From assembly GCA_022567135.1 (NCBI GenBank), contig JADFHP010000010.1, positions 1 through 39,453 of the forward strand: a stretch of 39,453 nt of DNA. The letters are read 5' to 3'. The position numbers and the translations under genes are program-made. Position 1 is the stretch's first letter. Each line of letters starts with the position of its first letter. The stretch comes from Chloroflexota bacterium (GTDB lineage: Bacteria; Chloroflexota; Dehalococcoidia; Lucifugimonadales; Lucifugimonadaceae). The notes under the pieces are model-generated. The model was given only the letters and a program-made list of their open reading frames with translations, ran no database searches and was not told the origin of the DNA. This document shows, one piece after another, positions 29,095-37,341 of the stretch.

Positions 29095-30636
29095 TCAGGC
29101 CGGCAAACGGACGGTGAAGCGAGTGCCGCCGCCGCCCCCAACCCCGGAAGCGTCAGAATGCACAGGACTCTCAGCGCTCACTGTGCCGCCGTGCGCCTCC
29201 ACCAACTGCCGCACAATCGTCAGGCCAAGTCCGGCTCCGCCCGTCGCGTGACTGCGTGACGGGTCGACACGGTACAGCCGGTCAAAAACATACTCCAACT
29301 CATCGCCGGGTATCCCCGGACCGGTATCGGTGACAGACAACGCGACCTCACCCGGGCCGGCCGTTACGTCGACATCCACCCGTCCGCCCTCTGGTGTGTA
29401 GCTGATAGCGTTTTCGATCAGGTTGGCAATGACCTGCCGAATGCGCGTCTGATCGACGCTGATCTCCGGGAGGTCCGAAGATCGCGTCAGCGCGAGGGCA
29501 ATATCCCGCTCATTGGCTCTTGGCATGAATGAGTCGACCGTCAGATCGGCGATATCGCCCAGATCGCCGCTGGTCATATCCATGCGGAGCGCTCCGGCCT
29601 CCATCATCGCGATGAGCCGCAGGTCTTCCACGAGATGGCTCAGGTGCAGTACCTGGGAGTGCAGAGAGGCGATGGTTTCGGCATCGGGCTCGATCAGCCC
29701 GTCCTTGATCGCTTCGAGATAGCCCTGGAGGTTCGATAAAGGCGTGCGCAACTCATGCGCCACATCTGCCGTCATCGACCGCCGGACGGCCTCGGCATCC
29801 TCGAGCTGGGACGCCATATTGTTGAAAGTGCGCCCCAGTTCGCCAACCTCATCCCGGCCCTTGACAGGGACGCGCATGGAGAAGTCGCCGCGGCCCAGCG
29901 CGACGGCAGCGCGAGTGAGCGTATGCACGGGCGCCAGGGTACGCTGGGTCGTCAGAGAGATGATCACTATGCCCGCCGCGCCTGCGGCCAGCCCTGCCCA
30001 GATCAGCGACCGGTTGAACGACGCGGCCAGTTGCGAGAGCTGCGGCTCGACCTGGTTCTGGGCCGAATCGCCCTCGATGCTTTCGACCTCTTCAATGCCC
30101 GTTGGCTCAGAGCGCGGGGGCCGCGGTCCATCTTCGCCGATCGTTAGCGACTGTATCCTCAGCGCTTCAGAACTGATGGTGTACGGAATCGACTCAAGGA
30201 GCCCATGGGGAATCGGGTAAGGCGACTCGAACAGAATCTCGCCGAGCAGCCTGCCCCTCACCATGATCGGCCGGCGCGTCACCTGCGGTCCCTTGAAGAA
30301 CGTCTCCGCCCTCATCTCGCCATCGTATCGATGCGACCCCGCGATCATATTCCCGTGCCGGTCAACCACCGCGATCTTCCATCCAAATAGCTGAGCGGCG
30401 TTTCGAAGCGCCGGCTCCAGCAGGCTCATCCGCGGTTCAAGCTCCAGATCGAAAGTATCCGCGACCACGTTTTCAAGGCGCGCCACCCGCGCCACCTCAA
30501 CGTCCTCACCGAAGGCATCAAGCTCCTTCTGTGTGGCGTACGACGCATAAAAGCCCACCCCGGCAAGGGCCAGCGCGAGCACAGATACAAAGCCGACTAC
30601 CAGTCGGAATTGCAGGCTATGGAGCCAGTCAGACAT
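29095..30636 (-). CDS. membrane sensor histidine kinase
   Basis: ATG 30636 ('MSDWLHSLQFRLVVG') lies inside the response-regulator stop region (ATGTCTGA, 8-bp overlap); the ORF-track extension is not used. 513 residues: TM1 ~11-31, an extracytoplasmic sensor of ~175 residues, TM2 ~209-229, HAMP 230-283, then the H box 'DVAHELRTPLSNLQGYLEAI' with phospho-accepting His 294. The N box is 'ANLIENAISYTPEGG', G1 'DTGPGIPGDEL' and G2 'GGAGLGLTIVRQLVEAHGG'. The sensor region matches no domain I recognise. It phosphorylates the OmpR-type regulator encoded just upstream. The stimulus may involve the secreted repeat protein of the same operon. Confidence 0.9.
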   Translation of the reverse strand: MSDWLHSLQFRLVVGFVSVLALALAGVGFYASYATQKELDAFGEDVEVARVARLENVVADTFDLELEPRMSLLEPALRNAAQLFGWKIAVVDRHGNMIAGSHRYDGEMRAETFFKGPQVTRRPIMVRGRLLGEILFESPYPIPHGLLESIPYTISSEALRIQSLTIGEDGPRPPRSEPTGIEEVESIEGDSAQNQVEPQLSQLAASFNRSLIWAGLAAGAAGIVIISLTTQRTLAPVHTLTRAAVALGRGDFSMRVPVKGRDEVGELGRTFNNMASQLEDAEAVRRSMTADVAHELRTPLSNLQGYLEAIKDGLIEPDAETIASLHSQVLHLSHLVEDLRLIAMMEAGALRMDMTSGDLGDIADLTVDSFMPRANERDIALALTRSSDLPEISVDQTRIRQVIANLIENAISYTPEGGRVDVDVTAGPGEVALSVTDTGPGIPGDELEYVFDRLYRVDPSRSHATGGAGLGLTIVRQLVEAHGGTVSAESPVHSDASGVGGGGGTRFTVRLPA

Positions 30637-31372
30637 CACCAAACCTGTAACCGACTCCATACACGGTGGAGAGGAACCGCTGCCCGTCAGGATCCCGCTC
30701 GATCTTTCGCCGCAGATTGGAGACATGGGTATCCAGGGTTCTGTCGAACCCCTCGAAGTCGTACCCGAAAACCCGCTCGATGATCCGGCCGCGGGGGTGT
30801 ACCTGCCCCGGCGCTCTCATGAAATGGACGAGAAGATTGAACTCGGTCGGCGTGAGCTTGATCGAGTCACCCCCGACCTTGACGACGCGGGCGTCGACGT
30901 GGACCGTCAGCTCGCCGTAAGAAAGCACGTCTCCGGCATCTTCTCCGCTTTCCCCGTCGTCAACGGATGTCCTCCGGAGCACGGCGCGCACCCTCGCCGA
31001 AAGCTCGCGCGGGCTGAACGGTTTCGTCATGTAATCGTCGGCGCCATAATCGAGCCCGGAGAGCTTGTCGGCCTCATCGACCCGCGCCGTGAGCATGATC
31101 ACCGGAACGTCGTTTTTCTCTTCCCGGAGGCGCCGGCAGATCTCAAGGCCGTCCATGCCCGGAAGCATCAGGTCCAGAACGATCAGGTCCGGACTGGTTT
31201 CCCGGGCTAACTTCAGCCCCTCCGACCCATCGTGAGACACGGTGACGTCATGACCGTCTCGGGCCAGGTAGAGCCGCGAGATTTCCGCCGCGTGCGGGTC
31301 GTCCTCAACAATGAGGATGGATTTGCCCGAAGCGTTCCGTGTGCCGGGTGGAGTTGTCTGTGCTGAGGTCAT
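30629..31372 (-). CDS. OmpR-family response regulator
   Basis: 247 residues from ATG 31372. The receiver domain has acidic residues Asp 24/25 ('IVEDDPH'), phospho-acceptor Asp 67 ('VLDLMLPGMDG') and Lys 117 ('DYMTKPFSPREL'). The C-terminal winged helix (~150-245) shows 'IKLTPTEFNLLVHFMRAPGQV' and 'RTLDTHVSNLRRKIE'. It regulates transcription once phosphorylated by the adjacent kinase. Two overlapping palindromes in front of the operon are candidate binding sites. Confidence 0.92.
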   Translation of the reverse strand: MTSAQTTPPGTRNASGKSILIVEDDPHAAEISRLYLARDGHDVTVSHDGSEGLKLARETSPDLIVLDLMLPGMDGLEICRRLREEKNDVPVIMLTARVDEADKLSGLDYGADDYMTKPFSPRELSARVRAVLRRTSVDDGESGEDAGDVLSYGELTVHVDARVVKVGGDSIKLTPTEFNLLVHFMRAPGQVHPRGRIIERVFGYDFEGFDRTLDTHVSNLRRKIERDPDGQRFLSTVYGVGYRFGDV

Positions 31373-31426: not shown

Positions 31427-32581
31427 TTAAATCGATCGGTTCAAAATATCCGTCTCTTCGGACGGCGCCTCATCGTCGAGATCAGGGAACTCGAACCGGA
31501 ACGGCTCTCCATCGTTGAAACGGAACTCGAATAACCCGGAACCGCCGAAATCGCGGAAGCGTTCTTCAAGGCGCTGTCTCAGATCATCGAGGTTCTCGGG
31601 GTCGATCTCGCCGAGTTCCGGAATCACCAACGGTCCCCTGTCTCCGAAAAGATCCCCAAACCGGAAACCCCGGAACGGGAATCGCCCATCTGGACTCTCG
31701 AAATCAAACTCAAACTCGAATGCGCCCGAGCCATTCCCGTCTTCCGAATCGTGATCGGAGTGCCCGAAAAAGTCCTCGAGGTGGAAGCGCTCTCCCAGAT
31801 GCCCGAGCCCGCCAAACAGATCAGGGAGCGTCTTGAAGGCGTGGGTCTTGGCGCCAAAGAAGAAACTCTCGGCAAATGGCAGTCCAAAGTGCAGTGGCCC
31901 GGGAATCAACTTGTTCGCAGCGTCCGGCCGGCTGTGCCACCACGCCTCGAACGCGTCCGCATCGCCTTGCTCGATTATCCCGGCCTCTACCAGGCCGTCG
32001 ATGGTCAGCGGAAGCGGCTCTTCATCGTTTGTCCGCCGTTCTACCTGGATCTTGAAAAATTCGATCGCCTCGGGCAGGCCGAGGTCGAGCAGGCCATCTG
32101 GGAAATCGTCCAGCCACGCCTTTACTTCGGCCGCGTCTTCTTCGGTTATCTCGCCGCTCAATACAGCCGCCGACAAGGCAGGGCGGCCGATGCGGAACAC
32201 GCTGCGGAAAGTCGGGCCATCACCGTCGATCAACTCTCTAACGGTTGCGGCCGTGATTTCGCCAATCGACTCGGGCCGCGATGCCAGCCACGCCTCTATC
32301 TCAGCCGCTTCCTCTTCGGATAGCTTCTCGGCATGCACAAGCTTGGCCAGCAGATCGGCGATCTTTTCGTCCGTCAGCTCGCCGCCGGCCTGCTCAAAGG
32401 CGTCCTTCAAGTTGGATGGGTCTATGCCCAGGATCTCGGCGGTCCTATCGAAAAGCCTGTCCTTGTGCTCGCCGCCGTGCCCGGTGAGCGCTTGCGCTGC
32501 GACCACGCCACCGCTGATAGTGGCGATCACCACGATCAGCAGCGGCACGAGAAATATGCGGCGTCGAAGTCTGCGAATCAT
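31427..32581 (-). CDS. secreted acidic repeat protein, function unknown
   Basis: 384 residues from ATG 32581. Residues ~9-30 form a signal peptide or anchor ('FLVPLLIVVIATISGGVVAA') after a basic start. Three units of the pattern (I/L)-T/S-E-E-(E/D)-A-A-E-x-x-A-W-x-x-x-x-P have their Trp at 98, 156 and 214, an exact 58-residue period. The 'DRLFDRTAEILGID' block before them resembles repeats in other Chloroflexi exported proteins. The last ~120 residues are strongly acidic and rich in Phe and Gly ('FEFEFDFESPDGRFPF'). First gene of an operon with the response regulator (54 bp) and kinase. It could be a ligand, accessory sensor or cation-binding surface protein. I do not recognise a named family. 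Confidence 0.75.
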   Translation of the reverse strand: MIRRLRRRIFLVPLLIVVIATISGGVVAAQALTGHGGEHKDRLFDRTAEILGIDPSNLKDAFEQAGGELTDEKIADLLAKLVHAEKLSEEEAAEIEAWLASRPESIGEITAATVRELIDGDGPTFRSVFRIGRPALSAAVLSGEITEEDAAEVKAWLDDFPDGLLDLGLPEAIEFFKIQVERRTNDEEPLPLTIDGLVEAGIIEQGDADAFEAWWHSRPDAANKLIPGPLHFGLPFAESFFFGAKTHAFKTLPDLFGGLGHLGERFHLEDFFGHSDHDSEDGNGSGAFEFEFDFESPDGRFPFRGFRFGDLFGDRGPLVIPELGEIDPENLDDLRQRLEERFRDFGGSGLFEFRFNDGEPFRFEFPDLDDEAPSEETDILNRSI

Positions 32582-32632: not shown

Positions 32633-32663
32633 AGACTTTTCAAGTCTACAAGGGTAGTTGTAG
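32633..32663. promoter_or_regulatory. two overlapping palindromes upstream of the two-component operon
   Basis: AGACTT-TTC-AAGTCT (32633-32647) overlaps CTACAA-GGGTAG-TTGTAG (32646-32663) by two bases. Both have perfect 6-bp arms. They lie 52-82 bp before the secreted-protein ATG. A minus-strand TTGACA (32688-32683) sits just upstream, though without a good -10 at the right distance. Good candidates for autoregulatory sites. Confidence 0.5.
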
Positions 32664-32823
32664 CCGCCCAATCTCAAGGAAATGTCAAAACATTCTTCAG
32701 GTTGAACGGCGACCGACTGCTGATTTGATGCCTGAAGCCGGTCAAGCAGCCGGAGTGCCTCGACCGGCTAACCTGCGAAAATCCAACAGTCCGGCTCTAA
32801 AAGCCGTCGCATAACGCCTTTTA

Positions 32824-34077
32824 TTAAAACTCTTCCGGACACCAGGGCATGCGCTCCCCGGCGAACATCGCGTCGGCTCGTTCAAGCGCCCCGCTCGCAG
32901 TCTCCTCCACACGCCCCGCCGCACGCAAAGTAGTGAATGAGACGCCGCCCAGGTATGTCGCTGCGAGATCGGCCACCGCCAACTCGATATCCGCGGCCTC
33001 AGTCGTCGCCACGCATGACGCGCCGTCGCCATCGGCCTCCAGCCTGTACGCTCCGTCGTTCCGCCCATGTTTCTGGGGACTAACGTCGTCGTGGACGCGG
33101 ATAACGATGCGGCCATCTGCCGAGTAAGCTCGGGCAGCAAGCGCCGCCGGAACGTCCATCAGCTTTACCCATACTCCGTCTATCGGCTCGCGACGCAACT
33201 GCCGTGAATCGTGCAGCAGCCAGGGCAGCGGGTCGTCAGCGGGAAGGTTCCAGTACTTGATCGTCTCCATCAGATCGACCGATAAGCAGTAGTTCCACAG
33301 AGCACGATGCGCCTCGGCAGTCTTCCAGACCAGCTCCTCGATCTCCAGCGAAGGGCCTTCCTTCGGGTTGATCCGATACGTCACGTAACCCTCGCAAACG
33401 TCGCCGTCCCGGTACACCGTATGCACCTTCGGACCCGCGCCGTGGCGCTCGTGTTCCGGGTCGGCCAGCAGGAATCCCCACCAGTGATCACCCCGGGCGA
33501 GCATTCCCGGCCATAGCGGCCTGGCCGCCTCGTATGCCTGCTGCATGTGCGGCAGAGCGTCATCCGGGCTCATGATCGTCAGCCGGCCGGGAAAATCGAC
33601 CGCCCCACCAAACGCCGCATGTTTTCGGGAAATCGACCAGTGTTCCATCGGCACGGCCATGCCGAATCCGAACCGGCCGTATATGGGCGTCTCGGAAGGC
33701 CAGAGCGCCGCCAGGACATCGCCCCGCTCACGACTCTCTCCCAGTTGCCGGTCCATCATCGCCCTCAGAATTCCCCGCCGGCGATGCGTCGGCTTCACGC
33801 CGACGTAGGCGATGCCTGCCGTCGGGACGGCCGCGCCCCCTGGCACGGTCATGGGCACCGACTGCGCGGCCGTTGTGCCAACGATCTGATTACCGTCCAG
33901 CGCGACAAACGCCCGATCGTCCTCGAAGATTCTCCGCTCCTGATCAATGCGGCCCTGTGGCGTGTCATTGCCGAATCCGAAATCGACAGCCCGGAAGAAC
34001 GACTCGAACTCGCCATCTTTCAAGGCGCGCAGCTCGATGCCCTCGGGCACTCTTGCCTGCCTAGAAATCGATGACAT
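32824..34077 (-). CDS. Eis-like GNAT N-acetyltransferase (copy 1)
   Basis: 417 residues. The N-terminal GNAT domain has the acetyl-CoA loop 'VGVKPTHRRRGILRAMM' (near 90-106) and the Eis signature 'SETPIYGRFGFGMA'. A degenerate second GNAT half and a C-terminal SCP2-like domain follow, ending in 'PEEF', a C-terminal Phe like the Eis family's catalytic carboxylate. Eis proteins are hexameric acetyltransferases that multiply acetylate aminoglycosides or other amines (family knowledge). The start overlaps the end of copy 2 by 17 bp. Third and last gene of a tandem set. Confidence 0.87.
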   Translation of the reverse strand: MSSISRQARVPEGIELRALKDGEFESFFRAVDFGFGNDTPQGRIDQERRIFEDDRAFVALDGNQIVGTTAAQSVPMTVPGGAAVPTAGIAYVGVKPTHRRRGILRAMMDRQLGESRERGDVLAALWPSETPIYGRFGFGMAVPMEHWSISRKHAAFGGAVDFPGRLTIMSPDDALPHMQQAYEAARPLWPGMLARGDHWWGFLLADPEHERHGAGPKVHTVYRDGDVCEGYVTYRINPKEGPSLEIEELVWKTAEAHRALWNYCLSVDLMETIKYWNLPADDPLPWLLHDSRQLRREPIDGVWVKLMDVPAALAARAYSADGRIVIRVHDDVSPQKHGRNDGAYRLEADGDGASCVATTEAADIELAVADLAATYLGGVSFTTLRAAGRVEETASGALERADAMFAGERMPWCPEEF

Positions 34078-35269
34078 TCCAGGGCGCCTTTCGAGTCGCG
34101 AACATAGCGTCTGCTGTTTTCAGTGCGCTGTCGGACCGGGCTTCTATGCGGCCCGCCCGTGCAAGCACGCTTGGCCGGACGCAGCCGAAGTAGATCGACG
34201 CCAGATCGGCGACGTTCATTTCCAGGTCGGCCGGCCCCGATGACTCCCTACAAGACGCGCCGTCCGCATCCCCTTCCAGGTCAAATGTGCCATTGGAGAC
34301 GCCCAGAAAATCGTCCCCTATCTTCAGAGACAACTTGCCGTCGCTCGAGTAGCTACGCGATGCGAGAACGGCCTGAACGTCGAGTATCCGGGACCAGATC
34401 CCGTCATGCCGCAACATATCCAGCTTTCTCATATCCACGAGCATCCAGCGCAGGGGATCATCGACCGGCCGCGTCCCGGCGGAAATTTCCTCGCCAAGAT
34501 CGATCCCGAAACAGAACCTCCAGAGCGCCGCCGCTGCCTCGTCTGAGGCCGCGATCGCCTCCGCGACCCGGATATCTTTTCGGCCGTCACCGGTTCGCCG
34601 GTAGAGCATGTAACCGCCCAGGCCCGCGTCGTCCTCGTAAAGCGCGCAGCTCAGAGCGCTATCGCCGCGGCGATCGTACTCAGGGTCCTTGAGGCGGTGC
34701 TCCCAGTCATGTTCTCCTCTGGATATCCAGCCCGGTCGGTCTGCGCCCGCCGCATCGAATATCGCCGGCAGTATGCCCGCCGCTTCATCGAGCGTAATAA
34801 TGCGGACGCTGCCTGAGGAGTCGAGTCCCGGCCGCAACTCAGCGTCGGACCTGGCTATCTTGTAGCGGTCGCGCTGCACGCTAATTCCGTAACCGAACCG
34901 GCCATATATCGGGGTTTCCGACGTTGCCAACGATGTAATCGCGTCGCCCCGTTCCCTGCGCTGCTCAAGAATCTGGCGCATCATCTGCGTGAGGATGCCC
35001 CTTCGCCTGTGTGTTGCCGCGACGGTAACGATGGTGATGCCCCCCGTCTGTAGCTTGCCGCCGGGAACGTTGGTCTGAAAATCGATAGCGCCAATCGTGC
35101 CCACAATATCGGGACCATCGAACGCGCCCAGATTGTCTATTCGTTTCAGGAAACCCTCGAAGTCGTCCAGGGCCTCTGGGCTCGGATGTTCCGTGAAGCC
35201 GCGTTCGACGGCGCGGGCGAAGGTTCGAAGTTCTTCCGTATCTGGCTTGCGTATCTCGTAATCAGGCAT
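34061..35269 (-). CDS. Eis-like GNAT N-acetyltransferase (copy 2)
   Basis: The start is ATG 35269 ('MPDYEIRKPDTEEL'), four bases after the stop of copy 3; the ORF-track extension to 35389 lies inside that gene. 402 residues with 'VAATHRRRGILTQMM', 'SETPIYGRFGYGIS' and terminal 'WNVIDF'. Domain order matches copy 1. Placement in the middle of the array with 4-bp and 17-bp junctions implies one transcript. Sequence divergence from its neighbours is high outside the motifs, so duplication is old. Confidence 0.86.
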   Translation of the reverse strand: MPDYEIRKPDTEELRTFARAVERGFTEHPSPEALDDFEGFLKRIDNLGAFDGPDIVGTIGAIDFQTNVPGGKLQTGGITIVTVAATHRRRGILTQMMRQILEQRRERGDAITSLATSETPIYGRFGYGISVQRDRYKIARSDAELRPGLDSSGSVRIITLDEAAGILPAIFDAAGADRPGWISRGEHDWEHRLKDPEYDRRGDSALSCALYEDDAGLGGYMLYRRTGDGRKDIRVAEAIAASDEAAAALWRFCFGIDLGEEISAGTRPVDDPLRWMLVDMRKLDMLRHDGIWSRILDVQAVLASRSYSSDGKLSLKIGDDFLGVSNGTFDLEGDADGASCRESSGPADLEMNVADLASIYFGCVRPSVLARAGRIEARSDSALKTADAMFATRKAPWNVIDF

Positions 35270-35273
35270 CTCG

Positions 35274-36497
35274 TTACCAGTACATGTGCGCCCACGGCGC
35301 AACTGTCGAGCGGAACATTCTGTCGAGCCTCGCCACTCCGTCTCCGGTGTGATCTTCGATACGTCCGGCGCGCTGCATCGACCGCGCACTCACCCCACCC
35401 AGATACAGCGAACCCAGCTCTCTCGCTGCCATAGTCACGTCCGGCCCCTCGGAAGTGGGCGAGCAGGCCGCCCCCTCAGGTCCGGCATCGAGCAGGAACC
35501 GGCCGTTGTTCCAGGGACAGAACTCATCGACTACCTCGATGACCATCGAGTCCTCTGTGTCGTACTTGCGGGCGCTCAGCGCCCCCGGCACGTCCACCAA
35601 TCTCAGGTACATCGAGTCGCCTACTTCCCGCTTCATCGCCCGCTTGTCGGCCAGCAGCCATACGAGCGGCTCATCGGGCGGCCGGGTCGCCTTTACCGTG
35701 CTTACCAGGTCGACATCAAGACAGAATCTCCAGAGGCCGGCGTATGCCCTGTCCGAGAGGGCGATCAGCTCCTTCACTGTAAGCACCTGCCGTGGCAAAG
35801 CGTCTACCCAGTTATCGTCGATCGAATAGGCCGCGAACCCTTCGATGCCTTCGTCACCGTCATAGGCGACGTAGAACATCTTCGGCGGCTTGTCCAGTCC
35901 CGTTTCATCGTCGTACAGACGTGCCGTCCAGAATGCATCCGAGCGCGTGACCATGCCCGGAAACAGATGCATCGCCCGCTCATGGATGGGTCTGAACAGG
36001 GCCTTAGCATCTTCGTATTCGACAAACTTGATCTGGCCGCCGGACTCAACCTCGGATTCGAACGCGCTGTTGTCGGCGTCGATCTCCCACTTCTCCCGGA
36101 AGTGCGACATCCCATAGCCGAACCGGCCGTATATCGGAGCCTGCGAGGTATACAGCGCCGCCAGCGGCTCGTCTCGCTCGTGGATATCGTCCATCTGCCA
36201 GCGCATCATCGCCGTCATGATCCCCCGCCTGCGATGAGTCGGAAGAACACCAATCCAACTGACGCCCCCGCATGGCAGGACGCTGCCACCGGGCACCGAC
36301 ATGCCAAGCGAATACGTCATGCTCTGGCCAACGAGCTGGCCATCGTCGAAAGCCGCCATCGACCGGTCGAACTCGAACGCGTTGTCACGCCAGTAGGCCG
36401 CCCGAGCCGGGTTAGGCAGTTCGCCCTCGACCATCTCATCGAGCGCGGCAACCGCATCGAAATCGTCGATAGTTAGTTTTCTGTATTCGAGATTCAT
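35274..36497 (-). CDS. Eis-like GNAT N-acetyltransferase (copy 3)
   Basis: 407 residues from ATG 36497. The acetyl-CoA loop 'IGVLPTHRRRGIMTAMM' and 'SQAPIYGRFGYGMS' are present, and the C-terminal SCP2-like domain ends 'PWAHMYW'. The terminal residue is Trp rather than the Phe of the other two copies, but the C-terminal carboxylate used in Eis chemistry is still available. First gene of the three-gene array, so any promoter lies in the 100 bp upstream. Substrates are unknown. Confidence 0.86.
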   Translation of the reverse strand: MNLEYRKLTIDDFDAVAALDEMVEGELPNPARAAYWRDNAFEFDRSMAAFDDGQLVGQSMTYSLGMSVPGGSVLPCGGVSWIGVLPTHRRRGIMTAMMRWQMDDIHERDEPLAALYTSQAPIYGRFGYGMSHFREKWEIDADNSAFESEVESGGQIKFVEYEDAKALFRPIHERAMHLFPGMVTRSDAFWTARLYDDETGLDKPPKMFYVAYDGDEGIEGFAAYSIDDNWVDALPRQVLTVKELIALSDRAYAGLWRFCLDVDLVSTVKATRPPDEPLVWLLADKRAMKREVGDSMYLRLVDVPGALSARKYDTEDSMVIEVVDEFCPWNNGRFLLDAGPEGAACSPTSEGPDVTMAARELGSLYLGGVSARSMQRAGRIEDHTGDGVARLDRMFRSTVAPWAHMYW

Positions 36498-36600
36498 GGC
36501 TCATCGTGAAATTGGCGCGAAATGCGAATGATAATTCACACGGCCTCAGAAGCGGTGCAGAACGAGGTGCGGGGGAACTACGAGGAGGCGGCGCCGACGA

Positions 36601-37341
36601 TTAGTCCACGTCCACTCTGGGTGGCGGGTTCAACACCGGGTGCAACGCCAGCAATCGCGCAACGGCCCCAGACGCGTTGTAGATCCCGTGACGCACCGTC
36701 GGCTCACACATGAACAGATCCCCCTCGGCGAGAGGAACGTTATCGTCATCGCCGTAAACGGCCGTCAAATTCCCCTCGTAACAGAACATCGACTCCTCGT
36801 GCGCCGGGTGGAAATGATTCGTCGCAACAGAGCCCGGCTCGAATGTCAGTTCCGAAACGTACGATGACTCCGCGCCAAGGAAATCGCCCACCATGTCGTA
36901 GCGCGAAACCCCGGGCATGAACTCGAACGACTCGTGCTGATCCCTGAAATAGACCCCCTGCTCCGGCGGGCCGTCGACCCACTCCGGCTCCGGCACGACC
37001 TCGCGCTCAGGAGACGGATTTGGATACATCACGATGAAGCGCGCCGGCGTGTCGCCCGCGTTGCCGATGCCGTGGCCCAACCCCCTGCGGGCGATCATGC
37101 AGTCTCCAGCCTTCGCCCTGAACCTGTGGCCATCCAGGCGCAGCTCCACCTCACCCTCGGCGACGAAGATCGACTCCTCCGTATTCGGGTGGACGTGGTA
37201 CACAGATGACACACCCGGCTCCAGCGTCAGATCGCCAACGGTCATCATCTTCGAGCCCAGTTCGCCGCCCATCATCTGGTACATGGAGCTACCTGGCATC
37301 GGCGACGCAGTCGGCTGGTCAGATCTTCTGTTGAGTGGCAT
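36601..37341 (-). CDS. bicupin (two-domain cupin)
   Basis: 246 residues from ATG 37341 with GAGGA upstream. Cupin 1 has 'YHVHPNTEESIFVAEGEVEL' (His 49, His 51, Glu 55) and 'GDCMIARRGLGHGI'. Cupin 2 has 'NHFHPAHEESMFCYEGN' (His 176, His 178, Glu 182) and 'GDLFMCEPTVRHGIYN'. Both metal sites look complete. Bicupins include oxalate decarboxylases, gentisate-type dioxygenases and (S)-ureidoglycine aminohydrolases. The length and N-terminus do not decide among them. No signal peptide is visible. Confidence 0.85.
   Translation of the reverse strand: MPLNRRSDQPTASPMPGSSMYQMMGGELGSKMMTVGDLTLEPGVSSVYHVHPNTEESIFVAEGEVELRLDGHRFRAKAGDCMIARRGLGHGIGNAGDTPARFIVMYPNPSPEREVVPEPEWVDGPPEQGVYFRDQHESFEFMPGVSRYDMVGDFLGAESSYVSELTFEPGSVATNHFHPAHEESMFCYEGNLTAVYGDDDNVPLAEGDLFMCEPTVRHGIYNASGAVARLLALHPVLNPPPRVDVD

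Follow-up and report, generated by a model that had tools for sequence, protein, structure and literature searches.

Much is known about envelope-stress sensing in proteobacteria, staphylococci, and streptomycetes. To our knowledge, it has hardly been studied in Chloroflexota, many members of which are uncultured.

The accessory protein CpxP inhibits the kinase CpxA, and cpxP is transcribed divergently from cpxRA (PMC6737893). The SaePQRS system of Staphylococcus aureus places its accessory gene first and the genes for the response regulator (RR) and the histidine kinase (HK) last. Its accessory proteins damp the kinase, with SaePQ raising the phosphatase activity, and the promoter before the accessory gene is autoinduced via the direct repeat GTTAAN6GTTAA, which has an 11-bp period (PMC5083920). 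In the CseA-CseB-CseC system of Streptomyces, which responds to envelope stress, a lipoprotein accessory precedes the RR and HK, and loss of CseA raises output (PMC6767563).

Here we describe a locus from a Chloroflexota bacterium in which the gene for a predicted secreted hairpin-repeat protein, called RWP in the following, precedes genes for an OmpR-type RR and a sensor HK. The window, i.e., the whole stretch of DNA analyzed, comprises 39,453 nucleotides. A first-pass annotation had suggested that RWP might be the ligand or accessory of a new kind of sensing system, a wording that is too strong because secreted or lipoprotein accessories with an RR and HK are known from SaePQRS, CseABC, and CpxP/CpxRA.

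RWP resembles CpxP and Spy (LTXXQ family, PF07813) in that it is predicted to be exported and helical and repeats an LTxxQ-like motif (LTQEQAD) at the helix start. As with CpxP and CpxRA, it lies beside an OmpR-type RR and an HK, RR-controlled expression would be expected, and some of its relatives are divergently oriented, as cpxP is. In contrast to cpxP, however, the RWP gene in the window is co-directional with the RR and HK genes, and members of the RWP family differ from CpxP and Spy in having 1-5 spaced repeats that carry Trp and RP, as well as variable tails. PF07813 did not match RWP up to an E-value of 10 and did not rank within the 25 families most often matched by 102 relatives; the NCBIfam ‘CpxP family’ model matched one of these 102 (E 2.8e-5). 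With SaePQRS, the RWP operon shares the accessory-first gene order and a putative promoter with an 11-bp direct repeat. SaeP, however, is a lipoprotein that needs SaeQ, whereas the locus has no SaeQ-like gene and RWP contains no Cys in its entire length and thus lacks the lipobox cysteine of the SaeP and CseA accessories. Searches of Pfam, NCBIfam, and the PDB revealed no sequence relation between RWP and SaeP. The order accessory-RR-HK is also that of CseABC, but CseA is a lipoprotein encoded in a sigma-E operon, whereas the three genes in the window neither enclose nor adjoin a gene for a sigma factor.

Results

The RWP gene is an open reading frame on the minus strand (31427-32581) encoding 384 aa, with orthologues and kept synteny in all three other members of the genus. 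Residues 1-31 (32489-32581, minus) read as a signal peptide, with an RRLRRR n-region, a hydrophobic core, and VVAAQA before the likely cleavage site. This basic, hydrophobic layout, which recurs in relatives, suggests that RWP is exported. It is followed by a conserved N-terminal helical segment (residues 42-72, RLFDRTAEILGI..LKDAFEQAGGEL; 32366-32458, minus), in which R46, A48, L51, A61, Q64, and A65 are invariant among 17 linked members. Three repeats were detected with a repeat HMM, all on the minus strand: repeat 1 at residues 70-107 (32261-32374, 41.9 bits), repeat 2 at residues 128-165 (32087-32200, 32.9 bits), and repeat 3 at residues 186-223 (31913-32026, 39.1 bits). The C-terminal tail (residues 228-384; 31430-31900, minus) is Phe-rich and acidic, as the first-pass annotation had noted, and contains 27 Phe, 36 Asp/Glu, and 21 Gly in the 157 aa after residue 227. 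Long tails of this type are confined to RR-linked members of one family-level clade. We set aside a co-occurrence of the long acidic Phe tail with a long HK sensor region, which is confined to one clade and thus does not count as independent support. A match to a generic terminator-like pattern at 31450-31465 is no more than expected by chance.

Trp residues at positions 98, 156, and 214 (and an additional one at 215) lie in EAW, KAW, and EAW motifs with a period of 58. Self-similarity of RWP is best at an offset of 58, with an ungapped BLOSUM62 score of 65, whereas the best score over all offsets of the shuffled protein was 43 and none of 300 shuffles reached 65. The repeat HMM finds three units at 58/58 spacing in RWP and in all three congeneric orthologues. 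This bears out the periodic (E/K)AW motifs of the first-pass annotation; of the ‘exact 58-residue repeat’ that it proposed, the period is exact but the sequence is not, as the three 59-residue blocks have only 10-12 identical positions in common. What is conserved is a unit of about 35 residues with the consensus LxxLVExGxITQExADxxxAWxxxRP, i.e., an exactly spaced motif. An AlphaFold model computed from a two-row alignment predicts hairpin-like helices, but its mean pLDDT of 39.8 is too low for fold or interface analysis or for a comparison with the antiparallel helical-hairpin dimer of CpxP and Spy.

A gap of 54 bp separates RWP from the RR gene (30629-31372, minus), which encodes 247 aa with a receiver domain (Response_reg, E 3e-32) and a Trans_reg_C domain (E 2e-25) and is thus an OmpR-family regulator. 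The HK gene (29095-30726, minus), with matches to HAMP, HisKA, and HATPase_c, comes third on the same strand. The listed HK start at 30726 implies a 98-bp overlap with the RR gene; judging from the sequence and this overlap, translation probably starts at Met31 (30636) instead. The spacing suggests that the three genes are on one transcript, in agreement with the earlier proposal that RWP is the first gene of a kinase/regulator operon. Among NCBIfam models, the catalytic region of the HK is nearest to BaeS-type envelope-stress kinases and the RR is nearest to MtrA/PhoB/OmpR, all below the cut-offs; the BaeS/BaeR equivalog thresholds were not reached by either the HK (239 vs 500 bits, NF012163) or the RR (195.5 vs 380 bits, NF007982). 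In an AlphaFold model of the HK from a two-row alignment (mean pLDDT 37.7), the sensor segment W116-F166 looks folded at low confidence.

All four genus members keep the order bicupin, several Eis-like acetyltransferases, RWP, RR, HK, amidohydrolase, and oxidoreductase. The region ahead of the operon in the window (32824-37341, minus) holds the bicupin gene and three tandem, mutually related genes for Eis-like GNAT/SCP2 acetyltransferases (32824-34077, 34061-35389, and 35274-36497, all minus). This cluster is conserved throughout the genus, and one locus (L034) has an extra copy.

Homologues of RWP were found in 30 of 60 relatives and in 62 of 196 genomes of the class, and a broader profile found the family in 125 of 201 Chloroflexota genomes; most of these genomes are metagenome-assembled, so that absence is uncertain. 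A contig scan with the RWP protein as the only query yielded one locus (L032), which carries the same genes as G003:C208 and was treated as a duplicate. Repeat spacing across the family is mostly about 35 to 121, and the 58/58 spacing occurs only in the genus of the window. Judged by profile comparison, the family is phylum-wide in Chloroflexota and weakly like DUF2680/SHOCT. The RWP repeat unit aligns with half of DUF2680/YckD (PF10925), but RWP differs in carrying several spaced copies. At E ≤ 0.01, 61 of 102 relatives match DUF2680; a few relatives match SHOCT-like models. RWP itself scores below the Pfam gathering cut-off for DUF2680 (18.1 vs 25 bits), whereas a paralogue in its own genome (L081) passes it (34.0 vs 25 bits). 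Run over the phylum, the DUF2680 model gave one match and is too insensitive for the RWP family. We dismissed weak Pfam matches to YggL, DUF4880, CARD, and others as noise from helical composition; sequence searches of the PDB returned no convincing match. A description of this family in Chloroflexota was not found in the literature searched, a search whose scope excluded most subscription journals.

Linkage of homologues with kinases, which the first-pass annotation had singled out as a check, is recurrent. Among 111 members from relatives and the class, a set with some bias, since linked members went into its search profile (A1), 54 have an RR/HK within 1.5 kb: 38 lie upstream of the RR, 11 are divergent, and five lie downstream of the HK. 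The corresponding count in a wider phylum sample, picked by a profile mixing linked and unlinked members, is 16 of 38 loci. RR/HK neighbors were detected by BLAST against the window’s own pair, so that distant ones may have been missed. The refuting outcome named in the first-pass annotation, a complete absence of kinase linkage among homologues, was therefore not observed. Around RWP, RRs occur at 260 per Mb in the nearest 500 bp and at 161 per Mb in the next 500 bp; farther out than 1 kb, their density is about ten times lower, at roughly 0-46 per Mb. Since four genomes contain 9-18 winged-helix RR genes each, adjacency by chance would be expected in only a few percent of cases. On the family tree, a quick search over 140 columns, linkage requires 31 changes by parsimony, at least nine of them on well-supported branches, and it is clustered (0 of 500 shuffles). 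At least nine well-supported changes together with this clustering indicate that the association has formed or been lost many times.

The partnership is common without being obligatory, and about half of the sampled members are unlinked. Conversely, no RWP was detected beside close relatives of the RR in 14 of 28 cases. One genome of the same family (G005) has a related RR/HK pair without an adjacent RWP; an acetyltransferase of the type seen in the window stands there instead, directly preceding the RR/HK with no repeat protein between (L196:2983-4209 and 2181-2933). In two relatives, a second, divergent RR gene lies upstream of the repeat protein (L049:5883-6647 and L050:7159-7875).

An alignment of the regions upstream of the four orthologues brought out the block TTTGACATTTCCTTGAGATTG (32669-32689, minus), an 11-bp direct repeat and candidate RR box in the promoter of the operon. 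A −10-like element, TACAAC (32657-32662, minus), lies 9 bp past the second half-site. At up to three mismatches, the block has one site per genus genome and is unique to this operon within the genus. Where an OmpR-family regulator activates a promoter, two half-sites separated by one helical turn and placed at a constant distance from a −10-like element are to be expected, and the box may be bound by an RR of this family, perhaps the one encoded in the operon. The operon promoter was missed by a simple sigma-70 scan.

We generalized the box to the pattern CTTSAAANNTTCTTSANA, an 11-bp direct repeat, and counted a match when at least 12 of 15 positions agreed. The pattern precedes 51% of the members that lie upstream of an RR, a figure that is partly circular, since linked members supplied the pattern. 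The unlinked members and the control genes provide a fair, independent test: it precedes 28% of the former and 0.6% of 481 control genes taken from these loci; in shuffles, the frequency is about 1%. Of the 47 matching sites, 31 have a TA, which is not part of the pattern, at exactly +9, whereas the next best offset has 8. The sole intergenic control gene that matches the pattern at 13/15 (L041:1206-2639, minus) is the divergent neighbor of an unlinked repeat-protein gene, and the two may thus share a control region.

Discussion

RWP is probably a feedback partner or a product of the adjacent sensing system. The reading that we prefer, and to which we give an even chance, is that it is the secreted accessory of an autoregulated, envelope-sensing two-component system, controlled by the RR and working in the manner of CpxP, SaeP, or CseA without shown homology to them. 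This reading is built on the repeat structure, the phylum-wide family, the repeated linkage with RR/HK, and the promoter element of fixed geometry. In this model, the phosphorylated RR would bind the direct repeat at 32669-32689 and turn on RWP, RR, and HK together. RWP would be exported, and its helical hairpins would act outside the membrane, where it would most likely bind the extracytoplasmic region of the HK and damp the kinase, as CpxP and SaePQ do. The stress reported by the HK would then either titrate RWP away or make use of it. We favor an accessory role because of the recurrent linkage, its three layouts, the shared promoter box, and the BaeS-like catalytic region of the HK.

The main rival, appreciably less probable than even but a serious contender, is that RWP is merely an output of the system, i.e., a Spy-like envelope chaperone or a surface or metal-binding protein that is induced by the RR, has no effect on the HK, and is co-located to ensure co-expression. 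The promoter element on unlinked members is what would be expected of regulon members, and many genomes hold several copies of the family; moreover, the Gly/His-rich tails of many unlinked members would suit metal or surface roles. However, adjacency to RR/HK that is this frequent and recurs in three layouts exceeds what a plain target gene needs. The two readings also overlap, as CpxP-like accessories are output and regulator at once, and both may hold for RWP.

It is improbable that RWP is a positive sensor that binds an extracellular ligand and presents it to the HK, as the ligand/receptor idea of the first-pass annotation would have it. Its first position in the gene order and its predicted export would fit such a role, and some periplasmic accessories do work as ligand-binding positive sensors (PMC12691602). 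RWP, however, is unlike solute-binding proteins or any ligand-binding fold, with no match to a solute-binding or ligand-receptor family in Pfam, NCBIfam, and PDB searches. Furthermore, the HK appears to have its own sensor segment, which looks folded, albeit at low confidence, and RR/HK pairs exist without an adjacent RWP. Placement beside RR/HK by chance or through a function-free conserved gene order, to which the inherited synteny of the genus out to the acetyltransferases, bicupin, amidohydrolase, and oxidoreductase lends a little weight, is close to refuted by the RR density near RWP and the tree analysis, since the linkage recurs over many family-level groups, takes several layouts, has unrelated flanks, and comes with a promoter element in common.

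Taken further, the accessory reading leads to the tentative and somewhat doubtful generalization that Chloroflexota use a phylum-wide secreted hairpin-repeat family as interchangeable extracytoplasmic feedback modules for OmpR-type systems, under a common RR box, TTSAxA-N5-TTSAxA-N9-TA. Together, the RWP family and the shared promoter box put a name to a candidate regulon and single out a concrete system of three genes. If the generalization were true, the unlinked copies would extend the same regulon, which would play for the phylum the part that the Cpx/Bae/Spy envelope response plays elsewhere. Small exported hairpin proteins would then have become partners of kinases on repeated occasions, perhaps independently of CpxP, and DUF2680-like repeats would gain a function.

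An RR-linked relative of 546 aa (L075:4790-6430) has an acidic tail with several near-identical tandem repeats of about 90 residues (...LDDLFSKLDGYEGGFGLSS...). A 161-aa relative upstream of an RR/HK (L197:2792-3277) consists of three almost identical LTQEQAD repeats of about 45 residues, and their near-identity points to recent duplication of the unit.
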